DNA of 64,000 bases from an uncultured Flavobacteriaceae bacterium (GTDB lineage Bacteria; Bacteroidota; Bacteroidia; Flavobacteriales; Flavobacteriaceae). This document shows positions 49,155 to 55,213 of the stretch, one piece after another (position 1 is the first letter of the stretch; every line of letters starts with the position of its first letter). The stretch lies in NCBI GenBank assembly GCA_947488345.1, contig CANKZQ010000001.1:1067501-1131500 (forward strand). The letters run 5' to 3'. The notes below the pieces were generated by a model that was given only the letters and a program-made list of their open reading frames with translations, was not told the DNA's origin and searched no databases. Position numbers and translations under genes: made by a program.

Positions 49155-50000
49155 ATGAATATTGCAATACAAGGCATTGAAGGCTCTTTTCACCACATGG
49201 TGGCCACAAATTATTTTGGAGATAATATCAATTTATCCAAATGCATGTCATTTGATGAAATTCCTGATCTTTTAAGAAACAATATAGCTGATGCCTCTGT
49301 AATGGCCATAGAGAATTCAAATAGTGGTTCTATCCTATCTAATTATGCTATGATAGACAAGTTTGATTTGAATATTCAAGGAGAAGTTTACATTCCTATG
49401 ATTCATAACGTGATGGCATTAAAAGGACAGACATTGCAAGATATTAAAGAAGTTTGGTCTCATCCTATTGCGATACAGCATTGCGAGCGTTTTTTTAGAC
49501 ATCACCCGCATATAAAAATTATTGAAGAAAAAGATACTGCTTTTGTTGCGAAGCAAATCAATGAAAAAAAATTAAAAGGAATTGCAACCATTGCTAGTAA
49601 AAAAGCAGCAGAAATTTATAGTTTAAATATCTTAGAAGAGCATATACAAACGGATAATCTTAATATGACTCGTTTTTTTATTTTGACGAAAAAGCGTGAT
49701 TTTGACGTTGATGTAAGCTCCCTCAATAAGGCATCACTCAAAATTATTACAAATCATGACCTTGGCAGCTTGGCAAAAGTCCTAAATATTTGTAACGAAC
49801 ATGCCTTAAATTTATCTAAAATTCAATCCATACCGATTGAAGATGAGCCTTGGAATTATTCTTTCTTTATCGATTTTACCTATGAAGATTATCTAACTTA
49901 TTGCAACGCCTTATTATCTTTAGAAAAAGAGGTGCAAAGTTTAAAAATATTAGGTGAATATTCTGAGAATAAACCGAATCAAAAAAAGATGATTGCCTAA
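49155..50000 (+). CDS. pheA: Prephenate dehydratase paralogue 1 (monofunctional PheA)
   Basis: 281 residues. PDT domain: IAIQGIEGSFHH, VMAIENSNSGSI, VWSHPIAIQHC and the catalytic TRF in NMTRFFIL (172-174). A C-terminal ACT domain (about 193-270) has GSLAKVLNI (204-207 GSLA) and QSIP (224-227) at the positions of the GALV and ESRP Phe-binding motifs of E. coli PheA. It converts prephenate to phenylpyruvate. First of three tandem copies; it has its own -7 element and no attenuator. Which copy is feedback-inhibited cannot be told. Confidence 0.93.
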   Translation: MNIAIQGIEGSFHHMVATNYFGDNINLSKCMSFDEIPDLLRNNIADASVMAIENSNSGSILSNYAMIDKFDLNIQGEVYIPMIHNVMALKGQTLQDIKEVWSHPIAIQHCERFFRHHPHIKIIEEKDTAFVAKQINEKKLKGIATIASKKAAEIYSLNILEEHIQTDNLNMTRFFILTKKRDFDVDVSSLNKASLKIITNHDLGSLAKVLNICNEHALNLSKIQSIPIEDEPWNYSFFIDFTYEDYLTYCNALLSLEKEVQSLKILGEYSENKPNQKKMIA

Positions 50001-50140: not shown

Positions 50141-50986
50141 ATGAATATAGCTATTCAAGGAGTAAAAGGATCTTTCCATCATTTGGTGGCAAATGAATTT
50201 TTTGGAAATGATATTAGTCTAACCGAATGTATGTCATTTAATGAAATGCCTCAGTTGCTTAGAAATGACAAGGTAGACGCGGCAATTATGGCAATCGAAA
50301 ATACGAATACAGGTTCGATTTTATCAAATTATGTCTTGATCGATAAATATGACTTGAACATTCAAGGTGAAGTTTATTTGCCAATGCAACATAATTTAAT
50401 GGCACTGGCGGGACAAAAATTAAGTGATATCGAAGAAGTATGGTCACATCCTGTTGCCATCAAAAACTGTGAGGGATTTTTTAGAAATAATCCTCAGATA
50501 AGAGTCATTGAAGAAAAAGACACCGCATTCGTCGCCAAACAAATAAACGATTTAAAAATTAAAGGTATAGCCGCAATCGCCAGTAAAACTGCTGCTAACA
50601 TCTATGGTTTAAAAATTTTAGAAGAATCAATTCAAGGAGATCGATTAAACATTACTCGCTTTTTTATTTTAACAAAAAATAGAGATTTTAGCATTGATGT
50701 CAATCTACATAACAAAGCATCTCTAAAATTTATTACCGACCATAAATTAGGAAGTCTTGCCGAAATATTAAATATCTGTGTTCAACACAATTTAAATTTA
50801 TCTAGAATTCAATCAATGCCAATTGTCAATGAACCATGGAATTATGCTTTTTATATCGACCATGATTTCAATGACTACTTAGAGTATTGCAACGCATTAT
50901 TAACTATAGAAAAGAAAGTCAATACTCTAAAAATACTTGGAGAGTATACCAAAGGGAAAGAAATCTTAGAAAAAGAAAGACTATAA
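50141..50986 (+). CDS. pheA: Prephenate dehydratase paralogue 2 (monofunctional PheA)
   Basis: 281 residues, aligned end to end with paralogue 1 without gaps; 39 of the first 60 residues are identical by eye. It keeps AIENTNTGSI, VWSHPVAIKNC, the catalytic TRF (in NITRFFIL), and the ACT motifs GSLAEILNI and QSMP. The 140-base gap upstream has only a poor -7 (ACTTTG region) 4 bases before the ATG, so it may be cotranscribed with paralogue 1 or give a near-leaderless message. A 25-codon frame at 50067-50144 overlaps its start but has no hairpin near it. Confidence 0.92.
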   Translation: MNIAIQGVKGSFHHLVANEFFGNDISLTECMSFNEMPQLLRNDKVDAAIMAIENTNTGSILSNYVLIDKYDLNIQGEVYLPMQHNLMALAGQKLSDIEEVWSHPVAIKNCEGFFRNNPQIRVIEEKDTAFVAKQINDLKIKGIAAIASKTAANIYGLKILEESIQGDRLNITRFFILTKNRDFSIDVNLHNKASLKFITDHKLGSLAEILNICVQHNLNLSRIQSMPIVNEPWNYAFYIDHDFNDYLEYCNALLTIEKKVNTLKILGEYTKGKEILEKERL

Positions 50987-51084
50987 TTTTTATCTAATTT
51001 TCAGCATCTTACATAGGAAATAGATAATTTAATGTCTGAAAAATTCACAATCCCATAAAAATCACAACGATACACCAAAAAAAT

Positions 51085-51114
51085 TTGTTTTTTAGACTTT
51101 AATGTATAGATTTG
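51085..51114 (+). promoter_or_regulatory. Promoter TTG-N19-TAGATTTG of the Phe/Tyr operon
   Basis: TTG (51085-51087) and TAGATTTG (51107-51114) are 19 bases apart, an excellent Bacteroidota promoter. A start near 51120 places the leader-peptide ATG about 15 bases into the transcript. Confidence 0.7.
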
Positions 51115-51134
51115 TTCCTTCGATAGAGAAAAGC

Positions 51135-51218
51135 ATGAAATTATTAAACACTTGGCAAGCTTATTTTTACTTCTTTTATTTTTTTAAGATGAAGCGAGAC
51201 TTTGTAGGTGTTATATAA
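51135..51218 (+). CDS. 27-residue aromatic leader peptide (Phe/Tyr attenuator)
   Basis: An ATG at 51135 opens 27 sense codons ending TAA at 51216-51218. Residues 10-17 are YFYFFYFF: eight aromatic codons in a row (three Tyr, five Phe; 51162-51185), with a Trp at residue 7. A chance run of this kind just upstream of a Phe/Tyr operon is very unlikely. The peptide has no other recognisable function; its translation would sense charged tRNA-Phe and tRNA-Tyr. The 5' arm of the antiterminator helix lies inside its last codons, 10 bases after the aromatic run. Confidence 0.85.
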   Translation: MKLLNTWQAYFYFFYFFKMKRDFVGVI

Positions 51219-51272
51219 ATATAAAATCAATAATACAAATTATAAAGTCTCGAGAAATCGGGACTTTTTTTT
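51195..51272 (+). promoter_or_regulatory. Transcription attenuator: alternative antiterminator and terminator helices
   Basis: Segment 1 (51195-51203, CGAGACTTT) is perfectly complementary to segment 2 (51244-51252, AAAGTCTCG), and the helix extends to about 51207/51240 with G-T pairs. Segment 2 also pairs with segment 3 (51259-51267) in a 9-base stem with one G-T pair, an AGAAAT loop and a T-run to 51272: an intrinsic terminator. The helices are exclusive. A ribosome stalled in the aromatic codons leaves segment 1 free, so 1:2 forms and transcription continues. A ribosome at the leader stop covers segment 1, so 2:3 forms and terminates. Confidence 0.85.
51244..51272 (+). terminator. Attenuator terminator hairpin
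   Basis: Stem of 51244-51252 with 51259-51267, six-base loop, and eight consecutive T from 51265 to 51272. It sits between the leader stop and the ATG at 51285, so it conditionally ends transcription before the structural genes. Confidence 0.85.
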
Positions 51273-51284
51273 GTGCATCATTTT

Positions 51285-52151
51285 ATGAATTCAAAAAGGA
51301 AAATAGCTATTCAAGGAATCAGAGGTTCTTTTCATCATCAAGTTGCCAATCAATACTTTGGTGACGATATCAACTTGCATGAATGCTTATCGTTTGTAGA
51401 AATACCAGAGCTTATCATTAATGGTTCGGTCGAAGGCGCTGTAATGGCGATTGAAAATTCTTTGGCTGGTTCTATTTTACCAAATTATGCGCTTATAGAT
51501 GAGTATAACTTGAATATTCAAGGAGAGGTGCATTTACCGATTCATCATCACTTAATGGGTTTAGAACATCAAACAATAGAAGACATACAAGAAGTTTGGT
51601 CACATCCAATGGCCATATTACAATGTCGTAAATTTTTCAGATCTCACCCTCATATAAAACTAGTTGAGGCATCTGATACGGCAGAAGTAGCTCAAAGAAT
51701 TCAAGAAAAGCAACTGAAAGGAATCGCCGCAATTGCGAGTAAAAAAGCGGCATCAATCTATAAGTTACAGATTATTGAAAATAGAATTCAAACAAGAGAG
51801 CAAAACTACACGCGCTTTTTTATCTTGAACAAACGAGAAAGAAATGAAGAGAAACCAACATTCATAAATAAAGCCTCTTTGAGATTTGTCACAAAACATC
51901 AGACCGGTAGTTTAGTTGATGTATTAGCAGTATTTTCAAATTTCAACATGAGCCTTTCTAAAATTCAATCACTACCTATCATAGACAAGCCTTGGAAATA
52001 TGCCTTTTTTGCTGATGTGATTTTTGATGATCATAACCTATTTAAAAGAGCGATTGACCAAATAAAGGAGAAAACTAGTGATGTGAAAATTCTAGGAGAA
52101 TACGAACAAAGTAAACGCAAACATAATGTTGACAGCGAACAGATTAAATAG
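51285..52151 (+). CDS. pheA: Prephenate dehydratase paralogue 3, attenuator-controlled
   Basis: 288 residues from the ATG at 51285; a GTG at 51273 is in frame but lies at the terminator T-run. It keeps KIAIQGIRGSFHH, AIENSLAGSILPNYALIDE, VWSHPMAILQC, the TRF triad (176-178), and ACT motifs GSLVDVLAV and QSLP. By wording it is the most canonical flavobacterial PheA of the three. First structural gene of the Phe/Tyr operon; its 3' end overlaps the aminotransferase start by 26 bases, so the genes are coupled. Confidence 0.94.
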   Translation: MNSKRKIAIQGIRGSFHHQVANQYFGDDINLHECLSFVEIPELIINGSVEGAVMAIENSLAGSILPNYALIDEYNLNIQGEVHLPIHHHLMGLEHQTIEDIQEVWSHPMAILQCRKFFRSHPHIKLVEASDTAEVAQRIQEKQLKGIAAIASKKAASIYKLQIIENRIQTREQNYTRFFILNKRERNEEKPTFINKASLRFVTKHQTGSLVDVLAVFSNFNMSLSKIQSLPIIDKPWKYAFFADVIFDDHNLFKRAIDQIKEKTSDVKILGEYEQSKRKHNVDSEQIK

Positions 52152-53271
52152 CGTAAAAGAATATTACTTCTCCAAAAAATTAAGAGAAGTGAGACAGCTA
52201 CAAGACGAGGGTAAACCTATTATTAATATAGGTATAGGTAGTCCTGATTTACCTCCGTCTCAACACGTCATTGAAGCAATTCAGCAGAGTTTAACACATG
52301 ATAGTATTCATGGCTATCAAAATTATCAAGGATTACCCGAATTTAGACATGCAATTGCAACATTTTATAAAAATAAATACAACGTCAACATTGATAAGGT
52401 AAACGAAGTACTTCCACTTATGGGCTCTAAGGAAGGTATCATGCATATCTCTATGGCATTTTTGAATGCAGGAGATCATGTTTTAGTTCCAAATCCCGGC
52501 TACCCAACTTATAGTTCTGTCACCAATTTATTAGAAGCAACTCCGATCTATTATGAATTAACGGAGGCGAATAATTGGTTTCCAGATTTAGATGCATTGA
52601 GCAAACAAGATGTGTCGAAAGTAAAACTAATGTGGGTTAATTATCCCCATATGCCTACAGGCGCCACGGCAACAATTTCTCAATTTGAAGCTTTGATAGC
52701 CTTTGCTCAAAAACATCAAATACTATTGGTAAATGATAATCCATATAGTTTTATTCTCAATGAAAATCCGCAAAGTATTTTTGCTGTTTCTGGAGCAAAA
52801 GAGGTGGCTTTAGAGCTGAATTCATTAAGTAAGTCATTTAATATGGCCGGCTGGCGCGTTGGAATGGTCTTAGGATCATCGAAAAATATAAAAGCCATAT
52901 TACAAGTTAAAAGCAATATGGATTCTGGCATGTTCTATGGAATACAGCAAGGTGCTATAGCTGCATTGAACAGTCCTAAAAGTTGGTTCGAAAAATTAAA
53001 TACTGTCTATACAGAACGAAGAAAAATTGCCTGGCATATTTTTGATGCATTACAATGCACCTATGATCAGACCAGTACTGGATTATTTGTGTGGGCAAAA
53101 ATTCCGTCAGGAAAAAAATCAGAACAATTAGCTGACGAACTTTTATATAAGTATGATGTTTTTTTGACTCCAGGAACTGTATTTGGTAGTAATGGTGAAG
53201 GATTTATAAGATTATCGCTATGCACCCCAAAAGAACAATTAAAAGAAGTATTAACTAGAGTCACAAACTAA
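52126..53271 (+). CDS. Class I/II PLP aminotransferase (probable aromatic transaminase)
   Basis: 381 residues, fold-type I. Landmarks: IGIGSPDLPPSQHV, GYQNYQGLPEFRHAIA, PNPGYPTYSSV, the Asn/Pro/His-containing LMWVNYPHMPTGA, VNDNPYSFILNE, the Schiff-base Lys in LNSLSKSFNMAGWRVGMVLGS, and the C-terminal Arg in GEGFIRLSLC. Its place between prephenate dehydratase and dehydrogenase suggests it makes Phe and Tyr from phenylpyruvate and 4-hydroxyphenylpyruvate; sequence alone does not fix the substrate. Confidence 0.9.
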   Translation: MLTANRLNSVKEYYFSKKLREVRQLQDEGKPIINIGIGSPDLPPSQHVIEAIQQSLTHDSIHGYQNYQGLPEFRHAIATFYKNKYNVNIDKVNEVLPLMGSKEGIMHISMAFLNAGDHVLVPNPGYPTYSSVTNLLEATPIYYELTEANNWFPDLDALSKQDVSKVKLMWVNYPHMPTGATATISQFEALIAFAQKHQILLVNDNPYSFILNENPQSIFAVSGAKEVALELNSLSKSFNMAGWRVGMVLGSSKNIKAILQVKSNMDSGMFYGIQQGAIAALNSPKSWFEKLNTVYTERRKIAWHIFDALQCTYDQTSTGLFVWAKIPSGKKSEQLADELLYKYDVFLTPGTVFGSNGEGFIRLSLCTPKEQLKEVLTRVTN

Positions 53272-53273
53272 TT

Positions 53274-54131
53274 ATGAAGAACATTGCAGTCATAGGCCTT
53301 GGGCTCATCGGTGGTTCATTGGCACTTGAATTAAAGAAACTAACTTGGGCTACAATTTATGGTATTGACAACAATCCTGAACATATTCAAAAAGCTCTTG
53401 ATCTGGGTATCATATTTAAAAAAGCAACACTAGATATTGTTAAGGAGGTAGACGTTGTTATTATAGCCGTACCGGTTAACGTTATCCCAGAAATAACAGT
53501 AAGTGTGCTCGATAAAATTGAATCAGATACTTTAGTTTTTGATGTAGGATCGACTAAAAGTGCTGTTTGCAACGCGGTAAAAGAGCATCCTAAACGGAAA
53601 AATTTTGTTGCATTACATCCTATTTCTGGTACTGAATTTTCGGGACCCGAAGCAGCCATATACAATCTCTTCATGAACAAGGTGAATATAATATGTGAGC
53701 AGCATTTGAGTAGTCAAAAAATGATAGAGCGTGCTGTATCGTTGTTTGAAAGTATTAAAATGAGGACAGTGTTTATGGACTCTGCAGCACAACATGACAA
53801 ACATATAGCCTATGTTTCTCATTTATCACATATTAGTTCTTTCATGTTGGGTAAAACAGTATTGGAAATTGAAAAAGACGAGAAGAGTATTTTTGATATG
53901 GCAGGAAGTGGTTTTGAATCTACAGTTAGGTTAGCGAAAAGTAATCCTAAAACTTGGACGCCCATTTTTTTACAAAACAAAAAGAATGTCTTAAAATCAT
54001 TAAACGAGTATATAAAAAATTTAGAAACATTTAAAAAACAATTAGAAGCTGAATCTCGCGAGGAGGTATTTGCTATTATGCAGGATACGAATCGAATAAA
54101 AGATGTTTTGGCAGGAATAAACAACAAATAA
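53274..54131 (+). CDS. tyrA: Prephenate dehydrogenase
   Basis: 285 residues. N-terminal Rossmann domain with IAVIGLGLIGGSLALELKK (GxGxxG) and an acidic residue at the end of the second strand (GIDNN), pointing to NAD use. The substrate region holds ALHPISGTEFSGPEAA and AYVSHLSHISSFMLG, with the catalytic His in the HPISGTE block. It makes 4-hydroxyphenylpyruvate for tyrosine. There is no ACT domain; regulation would be through the operon attenuator and the chorismate mutase/DAHP synthase. Gaps of 2 bases on both sides show tight cotranscription. Confidence 0.94.
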   Translation: MKNIAVIGLGLIGGSLALELKKLTWATIYGIDNNPEHIQKALDLGIIFKKATLDIVKEVDVVIIAVPVNVIPEITVSVLDKIESDTLVFDVGSTKSAVCNAVKEHPKRKNFVALHPISGTEFSGPEAAIYNLFMNKVNIICEQHLSSQKMIERAVSLFESIKMRTVFMDSAAQHDKHIAYVSHLSHISSFMLGKTVLEIEKDEKSIFDMAGSGFESTVRLAKSNPKTWTPIFLQNKKNVLKSLNEYIKNLETFKKQLEAESREEVFAIMQDTNRIKDVLAGINNK

Positions 54132-54133
54132 AT

Positions 54134-55213
54134 ATGGAATCAACAAATTTTTCAGCGTGGTTAGAGAAAATGGAATTAGCGCATCCTTTAGTTATTGCGG
54201 GTCCTTGCAGCGCCGAAACAGAAGAACAGGTATTAGAAATTGCACATGAGCTTAAAAAAACAGATGCTACAGTATATAGAGCTGGTATTTGGAAACCACG
54301 AACAAGACCGGGTAATTTTGAAGGCAACGGAGCGAAAGCATTGCCATGGATCGCAAAAGTAAAAGAGGAAACAGGCATGTTAACAACTGTTGAAGTTGCC
54401 AATGCACAGCATGCAAAATTGGCCTTAGAGTTTGATATTGACATCATTTGGATTGGTGCTCGTACAACGGTGAATCCTTTTGCCGTTCAAGAAATTGCCG
54501 ATGCTTTAAAAGGTACTGATAAGATCGTCTTAGTAAAAAATCCTATCAATCCGGATCTAGAATTATGGATAGGTGCTATCGAACGATTTCATTCGGCCGG
54601 AATCAAAAATTTAGGTGCTATTCACCGTGGTTTTTCATCCTACAAGAAAACAAAATACAGAAATAACCCTCAATGGCAAATTCCAATTGAGTTAAAAAAT
54701 AGATACCCAAAATTACCTATTATATGTGATCCTTCTCACATTTGCGGAAGACGCGATACAATTTTTGATGTTTCTCAAACGGCATTAGATTTAAAATTTG
54801 AAGGCTTGATGATTGAATCTCATTGTGATCCCGACAAAGCTTGGAGCGATGCTAAACAACAAATAACTCCTACCAGATTAAAAGAAATCACAGAAGATCT
54901 GAGGGTAAGGAAAGATAGAGTCGAAGAAAAAGATTCGGTAAAGAAATTAACAGATTTACGCTCAGAAATAAATCTATTAGACAAACAGCTTATAGAATTA
55001 TTAGCCGAGAGAATGAACGTAGCTGAAAATATTGGTGTTGTAAAGAAAGAGGCCAATGTGGCGATCTTACAACGTAGTAGATGGCAAGAAGTGATTCAAA
55101 AAATGGTAAATGAAGGAGGTCAAAACGGTTTGAGTTCTGAATTTATTGAAAGAGTTTTTAAGGCCATACACCAAGAATCGATTCAGCATCAAGAAAAAAT
55201 AGTGAATAGTTAG
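54134..55213 (+). CDS. DAHP synthase / chorismate mutase fusion
   Basis: 359 residues. The N-terminal ~260 are a KDO8P-type (class I-beta) DAHP synthase: VIAGPCSAET, KPRTRPGNFEGNG, GARTTVNPF, GAIHRGFSSY, DPSHICGRRD and IESHCDPDKAWSDA. The C-terminal ~90 residues are an AroQ chorismate mutase (DLRSEINLLDKQLIELLAERMNVAENIG, QRSRWQEVI, ERVFKAIHQESI). It catalyses the first shikimate step and the branch-point step, and is a known Bacteroidota fusion. Last gene of the operon. Confidence 0.95.
   Translation: MESTNFSAWLEKMELAHPLVIAGPCSAETEEQVLEIAHELKKTDATVYRAGIWKPRTRPGNFEGNGAKALPWIAKVKEETGMLTTVEVANAQHAKLALEFDIDIIWIGARTTVNPFAVQEIADALKGTDKIVLVKNPINPDLELWIGAIERFHSAGIKNLGAIHRGFSSYKKTKYRNNPQWQIPIELKNRYPKLPIICDPSHICGRRDTIFDVSQTALDLKFEGLMIESHCDPDKAWSDAKQQITPTRLKEITEDLRVRKDRVEEKDSVKKLTDLRSEINLLDKQLIELLAERMNVAENIGVVKKEANVAILQRSRWQEVIQKMVNEGGQNGLSSEFIERVFKAIHQESIQHQEKIVNS

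Follow-up and report, generated by a model that had tools for sequence, protein, structure and literature searches.

The pheA gene of an uncultured bacterium of the Flavobacteriaceae is preceded by a real leader element that, judged by genome comparison, is well conserved among relatives and well supported. The element is very probably a ribosome-mediated transcription attenuator of the classical type with four segments, which would control an operon for phenylalanine and tyrosine synthesis together with the first step of the aromatic pathway.

Anatomy of the pheA leader

The stretch of DNA analysed, 64 kb long, is termed the window. Its positions 51084-51285 contain, in order, a promoter, an ORF of 27 codons, a terminator hairpin and then pheA (Table 1). 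The leader, its aromatic run, segments 1, 2 and 3 and the downstream genes were all found in the window sequence where the preliminary description of this DNA had placed them. The eight T that it reported after the stem are present at 51265-51272, three of them inside the stem and five after it. Pairing of 51195-51203 with 51244-51252, given there as the whole of helix 1:2, does occur; the folded antiterminator is longer and comprises 13 + 7 pairs (51195-51207:51240-51252 and 51208-51214:51230-51236). The left arm of the terminator (51244-51253) overlaps segment 2, and the antiterminator and the intrinsic terminator are mutually exclusive, as in leader-peptide attenuators. The end of the T-run is followed by 12 bases and the ATG of pheA; a GTG at 51273 shares the frame of this gene. 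The leader contains a Trp codon at 51153-51155, and a second in-frame ATG, at 51102, is placed before the -7 box.

Table 1. Positions of the leader parts and operon genes in the window
Feature	Position	Strand	Details and basis
Promoter	51084-51114	+	TTTG 51084-51087, 19-base spacer, TAGATTTG 51107-51114
Leader peptide ORF, 27 codons, MKLLNTWQAYFYFFYFFKMKRDFVGVI	51135-51218	+	ATG 51135, TAA 51216-51218
Eight consecutive aromatic codons YFYFFYFF, presumed stall sites	51162-51185	+	
Segment 0, 5' arm of the protector/pause hairpin; made of leader codons, among them most of the aromatic run	51141-51178	+	Fold, swap test
Segment 1, partner of segment 0 or of segment 2 (antiterminator)	51195-51214	+	Core CGAGACTTT 51195-51203
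Segment 2	51230-51252	+	51230-51236 and 51240-51252 pair with segment 1; core AAAGTCTCG 51244-51252
Segment 3 (from 51258 to 51267) and T-run to 51272, intrinsic terminator	51258-51272	+	Core CGGGACTTT 51259-51267
pheA, prephenate dehydratase; its end is ACT-like, with ACT scoring below the Pfam cut-off	51285-52151	+	Pfam, NCBIfam
Aminotransferase class I/II	52126-53271	+	Pfam, NCBIfam
tyrA, prephenate dehydrogenase	53274-54131	+	Pfam, NCBIfam
DAHP synthase fused to chorismate mutase	54134-55213	+	Pfam, NCBIfam

The TTTG-N19-TAGATTTG arrangement is taken to be a promoter of the Bacteroidota type. Among relatives (119 of the 120 strict rows defined below), TAnnTTnG occurs no more than 50 nt 5' of the leader ATG in 113/119, against 0.12 in mononucleotide shuffles, and TTG-N17-22-TAnnTTnG in 83/119, against 0.01.

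The transcript up to segment 1 forms one long hairpin, helix 0:1, with leader codons as its 5' arm and segment 1 as its 3' arm; in the window its energy is -14.5 kcal/mol (fold of 51120-51224). A protector/pause hairpin involving the control codons is thereby present, its blocking strength being doubtful in some genomes, the window included. On the sequence evidence the element has four segments, since helix 0:1 adds to helices 1:2 and 2:3. The earlier reading had three segments: its two helices do co-vary, and the conserved helix 0:1 was overlooked. In the E. coli attenuator it is helix 1:2 that serves as the pause or protector helix, and helix 0:1 is its counterpart here.

The attenuator adjoins genes of aromatic synthesis and is placed before those making the amino acids concerned. 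Directly downstream of pheA an aminotransferase gene was found in 70 of the 80 loci with enough DNA, some of which share a genome; DAHP synthase was found in 5 and neither in 5. Two more prephenate dehydratase genes stand in tandem directly upstream (49155-50000 and 50141-50986), sharing 55% and 53% identity with the third copy; the detector described below found no attenuator at either. Three prephenate dehydratase copies occur likewise in the relatives G002 and G004. The related-locus search of the genome contigs gave 5 loci.

Conservation and co-variation in the family

A pheA match was present in 47 of 60 genomes in the search of relatives and in 136 of 149 in the family search, which sampled the Flavobacteriaceae at roughly one genome per genus. 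The DNA upstream of pheA was read by a strict detector requiring an aromatic leader (at least 5 aromatic residues in 9), a terminator with a T-run and complementarity between segments 1 and 2. It was positive in 121 of the 136 family genomes, in 1 of 680 dinucleotide shuffles and in none of the 136 reverse-complemented pheA upstream regions. The element is visible by eye in 11 further family genomes. Leader and terminator are plain and helix 1:2 is weak in the by-eye rows G146, G147 and G088, while G300, scored as strict, has a poor leader. No recognisable element was found 5' of pheA in four of the 136 genomes (G029, G061, G152 and G073, the last with just 379 upstream bases). The preliminary description, with which relatives devoid of an aromatic leader or of the pairing would have been at odds, is borne out by these counts, which show the aromatic leader to be kept, and by the swap test given below, in which segments 1, 2 and 3 co-vary across the Flavobacteriaceae. 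The leader ORF alone is weaker evidence because aromatic-rich short ORFs are common in such AT-rich DNA (131/136 real regions and 174/680 shuffles).

The pheA loci of the family without an attenuator are L106, L117, L151 and L041; the upstream DNA of L106 and L041 looks repetitive by eye.

The first alignment was made without L002 and L003 (paralogs from the window), L021, which has no DNA upstream, and the distant L037; alignment A1 is without the near-identical rows L016 and L017, and alignment A2 consists of 93 of the 120 rows, chosen for diversity. The swap, shuffle-energy and fold tests cover 120 strict rows of the 136, G148 being left out. In these 120 of 136 rows a short ORF is predicted in which the codons for the regulated amino acids are clustered.

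In the swap test, the pairing energy of segments from the same genome was compared with that obtained using the partners of other genomes, for 120 genomes, with related genomes counted separately. The segment windows were set independently of the partner, since the test is biased if segment 1 is picked for how well it complements segment 2 of the same genome. For helix 1:2, own pairing averaged -11.28 and other pairing -8.41 kcal/mol, own being stronger in 113/120; for helix 0:1 the values were -18.10 and -13.24 kcal/mol, with own stronger in 116/120; and for helix 2:3 own was stronger in 115/120. In the negative controls, own pairing was stronger in 62/120 (leader with segment 2) and 63/120 (segment 1 with segment 3). 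The 5' hairpin 0:1 has a mean z of -3.03 against shuffles, z being below -2 in 94/120; its fold was drawn for twelve genomes, with G023 a partial exception on the distal side.

The co-variation can be followed in the letters. Variants of segments 1 and 2 change together (CGAGACTTT/AAAGTCTCG, CGAGGCTTT/AAAGCCTCG, ACGGGACT/AGTCCCGT, CCGGGTT/AACCCGG and others), and a purine in segment 1 tracks a pyrimidine in segment 2: G:C in 21, A:T in 58, G:T in 2 and A:C in none of the 81 scorable cases. RNAalifold on a 93-row MAFFT alignment recovered the terminator, 8 of whose 9 pairs show changes on both sides, and neither helix 1:2 nor helix 0:1. The swap test was used for the latter two because segment 1 is shifted by one base between some clades in the MAFFT alignment.

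Folding with the ribosome and competing explanations

For folds with a ribosome, a footprint of 15 bases upstream and 12 bases downstream of the first A-site base was assumed. For transcripts ending at segment 2, P(1:2) exceeded 0.5 in 120/120 genomes with the ribosome A site in the middle of the aromatic run, in 80/120 without a ribosome and in 5/120 with the ribosome at the stop codon, the window (0.66) being among these five. In complete leaders, the ribosome at the stop codon gave 2:3 over 1:2 in 119/120; on the last aromatic codon, mean P(1:2) was 0.05. With the ribosome mid-run, 1:2 exceeded 2:3 at equilibrium in just 19/120, so that antitermination would have to be kinetic in most relatives. 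Complete leaders folded at equilibrium without a ribosome favour 2:3 in 118/120 and 1:2 in two, one of which is the window.

The window leader, folded from 51120, gave P(1:2) 0.96 and P(2:3) 0.03 with the ribosome mid-run, 0.19 and 0.75 with the ribosome on the last Phe codon, and 0.00 and 0.96 with the ribosome at the stop codon. Without a ribosome, P(1:2) was 0.92 and P(2:3) was 0.08 (0.78 vs 0.21 when the fold began further upstream). This last result would fit an alternative in which only helices 1:2 and 2:3 operate, no protector is formed and an untranslated leader reads through by default; so would the 80 ribosome-free transcripts in which 1:2 dominates and the fact that 0:1 is not a strong block everywhere, perhaps not in the window either. 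Such an arrangement is nevertheless rather unlikely, as helix 0:1 co-varies and is far more stable than shuffles, and ribosome-free read-through of complete leaders is predicted for only the two genomes mentioned.

The four-segment attenuator would work as follows. RNA polymerase would start near 51120, and the ribosome would load on the leader at once. In the nascent RNA, hairpin 0:1 would form first and sequester segment 1. When charged Phe or Tyr (perhaps Trp) tRNA is scarce, the ribosome would stall within the aromatic run, opening 0:1 and releasing segment 1; the freed segment would pair with segment 2 ahead of the synthesis of segment 3, so that no terminator forms and the operon is transcribed. 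When the aromatic tRNAs are charged, the ribosome would reach the stop codon beside segment 1 and cover part of it, segment 2 would then pair with segment 3, and transcription would presumably end near 51272 in vivo. The detector counts, the swap test and the ribosome folds all support the preliminary proposal that stalling leads to 1:2 and full translation to 2:3.

As for the signal, Phe and Tyr codons are found in all 120 strict leaders, in agreement with the Phe/Tyr signal proposed earlier, which may need to be widened to Trp, since Trp codons occur as well in 83/120. Since DAHP synthase, the enzyme of the shared first step, is encoded in the operon, sensing of all three aromatic amino acids is plausible. 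The Trp codon of the leader may also be structural rather than a signal. In the 15 genus rows, the eight aromatic codons differ only by synonymous or F/Y changes, apart from a single AAG in the final position; across codons 1-17 of these rows, the variable columns number 6, 8 and 10 at codon positions 1, 2 and 3, with no clear third-position excess.

A dense aromatic run could slow any ribosome, and the same ribosome-dependent switch might therefore sense a general slowing of translation, or stalling by the poly-aromatic nascent chain, instead of the charge of aromatic tRNAs. This is quite improbable: the strict leaders are rich in exactly the amino acids that the operon produces (F 23.8%, Y 15.5% and W 3.1% of 2715 residues, the detector itself selecting for aromatics), and the order of F and Y varies among relatives, which disfavours a specific arrest peptide.

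The terminator by itself is unremarkable: 9 kb of the window hold 5 terminator-like sites, and shuffles yield a similar number (4.9 +/- 2.9). Its origin as an ordinary terminator of an upstream transcript, next to an unrelated or functional small protein, is still hardly credible. Segment 1 would be of no use to such a terminator, yet it co-varies with segment 2; the leader is separated from the upstream gene by a promoter-like site; and the peptide end is not conserved in frame (relatives differ 3' of the aromatic run, KRNEAL and stop against KMKRDFVGVI and stop, with the RNA kept). A T-box leader was rejected, there being no T-box covariance-model match among the Rfam matches in the window.

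Distribution, known systems and significance

A model, R1, was trained on 93 family rows. At E <= 1.6e-5 it gave 29 hits, spread over 28 of the 40 genomes, several of which had supplied rows to the model; all hits lie no more than 125 bases upstream of a pheA match, and hits at E 4e-4 to 0.01 are outside the count. The genome of the window has one R1 hit in all, and G009 has two. The second attenuator copy of G009 stands 5' of a pheA encoding a product of 580 aa (L241:1810-3552, minus strand), the 3' end of which is extended in frame by about 340 residues of seemingly unrelated, repeat-like sequence, as judged by eye.

Of the 27 genomes examined from other families of the class, 14 are strict positives, 7 more show the element by eye and 6 are without it; the detector found none in 540 shuffles of these genomes. 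The class sample included 64 of 89 genomes without a match to the query, which are uninformative. Among same-order genomes outside the family, two of the three read have the element (G050 and G037; not G040); seven others with a pheA match were left out of this reading, including G038, which has an R1 hit. Outside the class, one strict and one by-eye case were found among 7 genomes read. The phylum sample of 102 matching genomes divides into 24 + 1 read, 6 already in the family set and 71 left out. A four-segment attenuator sensing the three aromatic amino acids is slightly more likely than not to be the ancestral way of controlling the Phe/Tyr operon across the whole class, taken to be Bacteroidia.

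The pheL and trpL leaders of E. coli are the classical four-segment leader attenuators. The E. coli pheA/pheST and trp attenuators (RF01859) share with the present element the leader ORF with codons of the product, the protector/pause hairpin, the antiterminator and the T-run terminator, and in the case of pheA also the downstream gene. Unlike the E. coli Phe leader, which has Phe only, the leader described here mixes Phe, Tyr and usually Trp codons, and unlike E. coli pheA, its operon also holds tyrA and DAHP synthase. Flavobacterial translation initiation also departs from the Shine-Dalgarno mode, according to the relevant passages of PMC9723704.

At gathering score, Rfam has no match in the 64-kb window, and the permissive search (up to E 10) gave sub-threshold Phe_leader and unrelated names only. 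Among the 15 matches that the stretch gave up to E 10, RF01859 Phe_leader had the top bit score, with rliD having a lower E-value; RF01859 matches end to end at 51148-51273 with 26.1 bits, below the gathering score of 55, so that the element does not qualify as a member. In relatives, RF01859 is listed at E <= 0.1 in 2 of 20, with 30.9 and 30.8 bits.

A further element, RF01692 Bacteroid-trp (Weinberg 2010), is listed for Bacteroidetes in PMC2864571, as far as the relevant part of that paper goes. Like the pheA leader it is a cis-regulatory element of Bacteroidetes, from which it differs in its Trp codons; it gave no match at the pheA leader up to E 10. A copy above the cut-off (53.6 bits) was found in the same genome (L228, C1:1233046-1233169), its leader MNTQLNTTWWWNSRKATFVN containing three Trp codons, and RF01692 matches occur in 14 of 21 genomes searched. 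For a His leader, the pattern CAYCAYCAYCAY was found at 71 places in this genome, with no convincing leader in the four clusters read.

The transcriptome report on Flavobacterium psychrophilum (PMC9723704, 2021) finds, in the passages concerned, strong clues that amino-acid operons are subject to leader-peptide attenuation, and notes a structured, conserved 5' transcribed element at pheA, found also in other Flavobacteriaceae genera and without an Rfam hit. Judging from these passages, that element is very probably the one described here; unlike the present analysis, they do not name the leader-peptide operons and give neither segments nor co-variation. The preliminary description knew of no such attenuator for this pathway in Flavobacteriia; the 2021 report already hints at the pheA element, and RF01692 is present in the same genome. 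The relevant parts of other papers mention leader-peptide-like short ORFs in long 5' UTRs of Bacteroides thetaiotaomicron (PMC7366714), leader peptides known only from Proteobacteria and Actinobacteria, with Firmicutes added (PMC2965389, 2010), and leader genes near structural genes, Bacteroidetes included (PMC4833913). A fuller published description may exist, the literature covered being the open-licence part of PMC. Lopatovskaya 2010 reportedly deals with attenuation across bacteria and may contain earlier predictions. Little is new in kind, the switch being of a classical type and briefly hinted at in a related fish bacterium.

For leader-peptide attenuators outside the best-known groups, the pheA leader provides a worked comparative model in which three helices co-vary. 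It extends the brief 2021 report on one fish-associated flavobacterium to most of the family and, beyond that, to further families of the class. If the ancestral reading is true, transcription and translation would be tightly coupled in the phylum, at least at the 5' ends of messages, in a class with unusual promoters and without the usual Shine-Dalgarno initiation. The pheA leader would be a ready reporter for this question of coupling in Bacteroidota.
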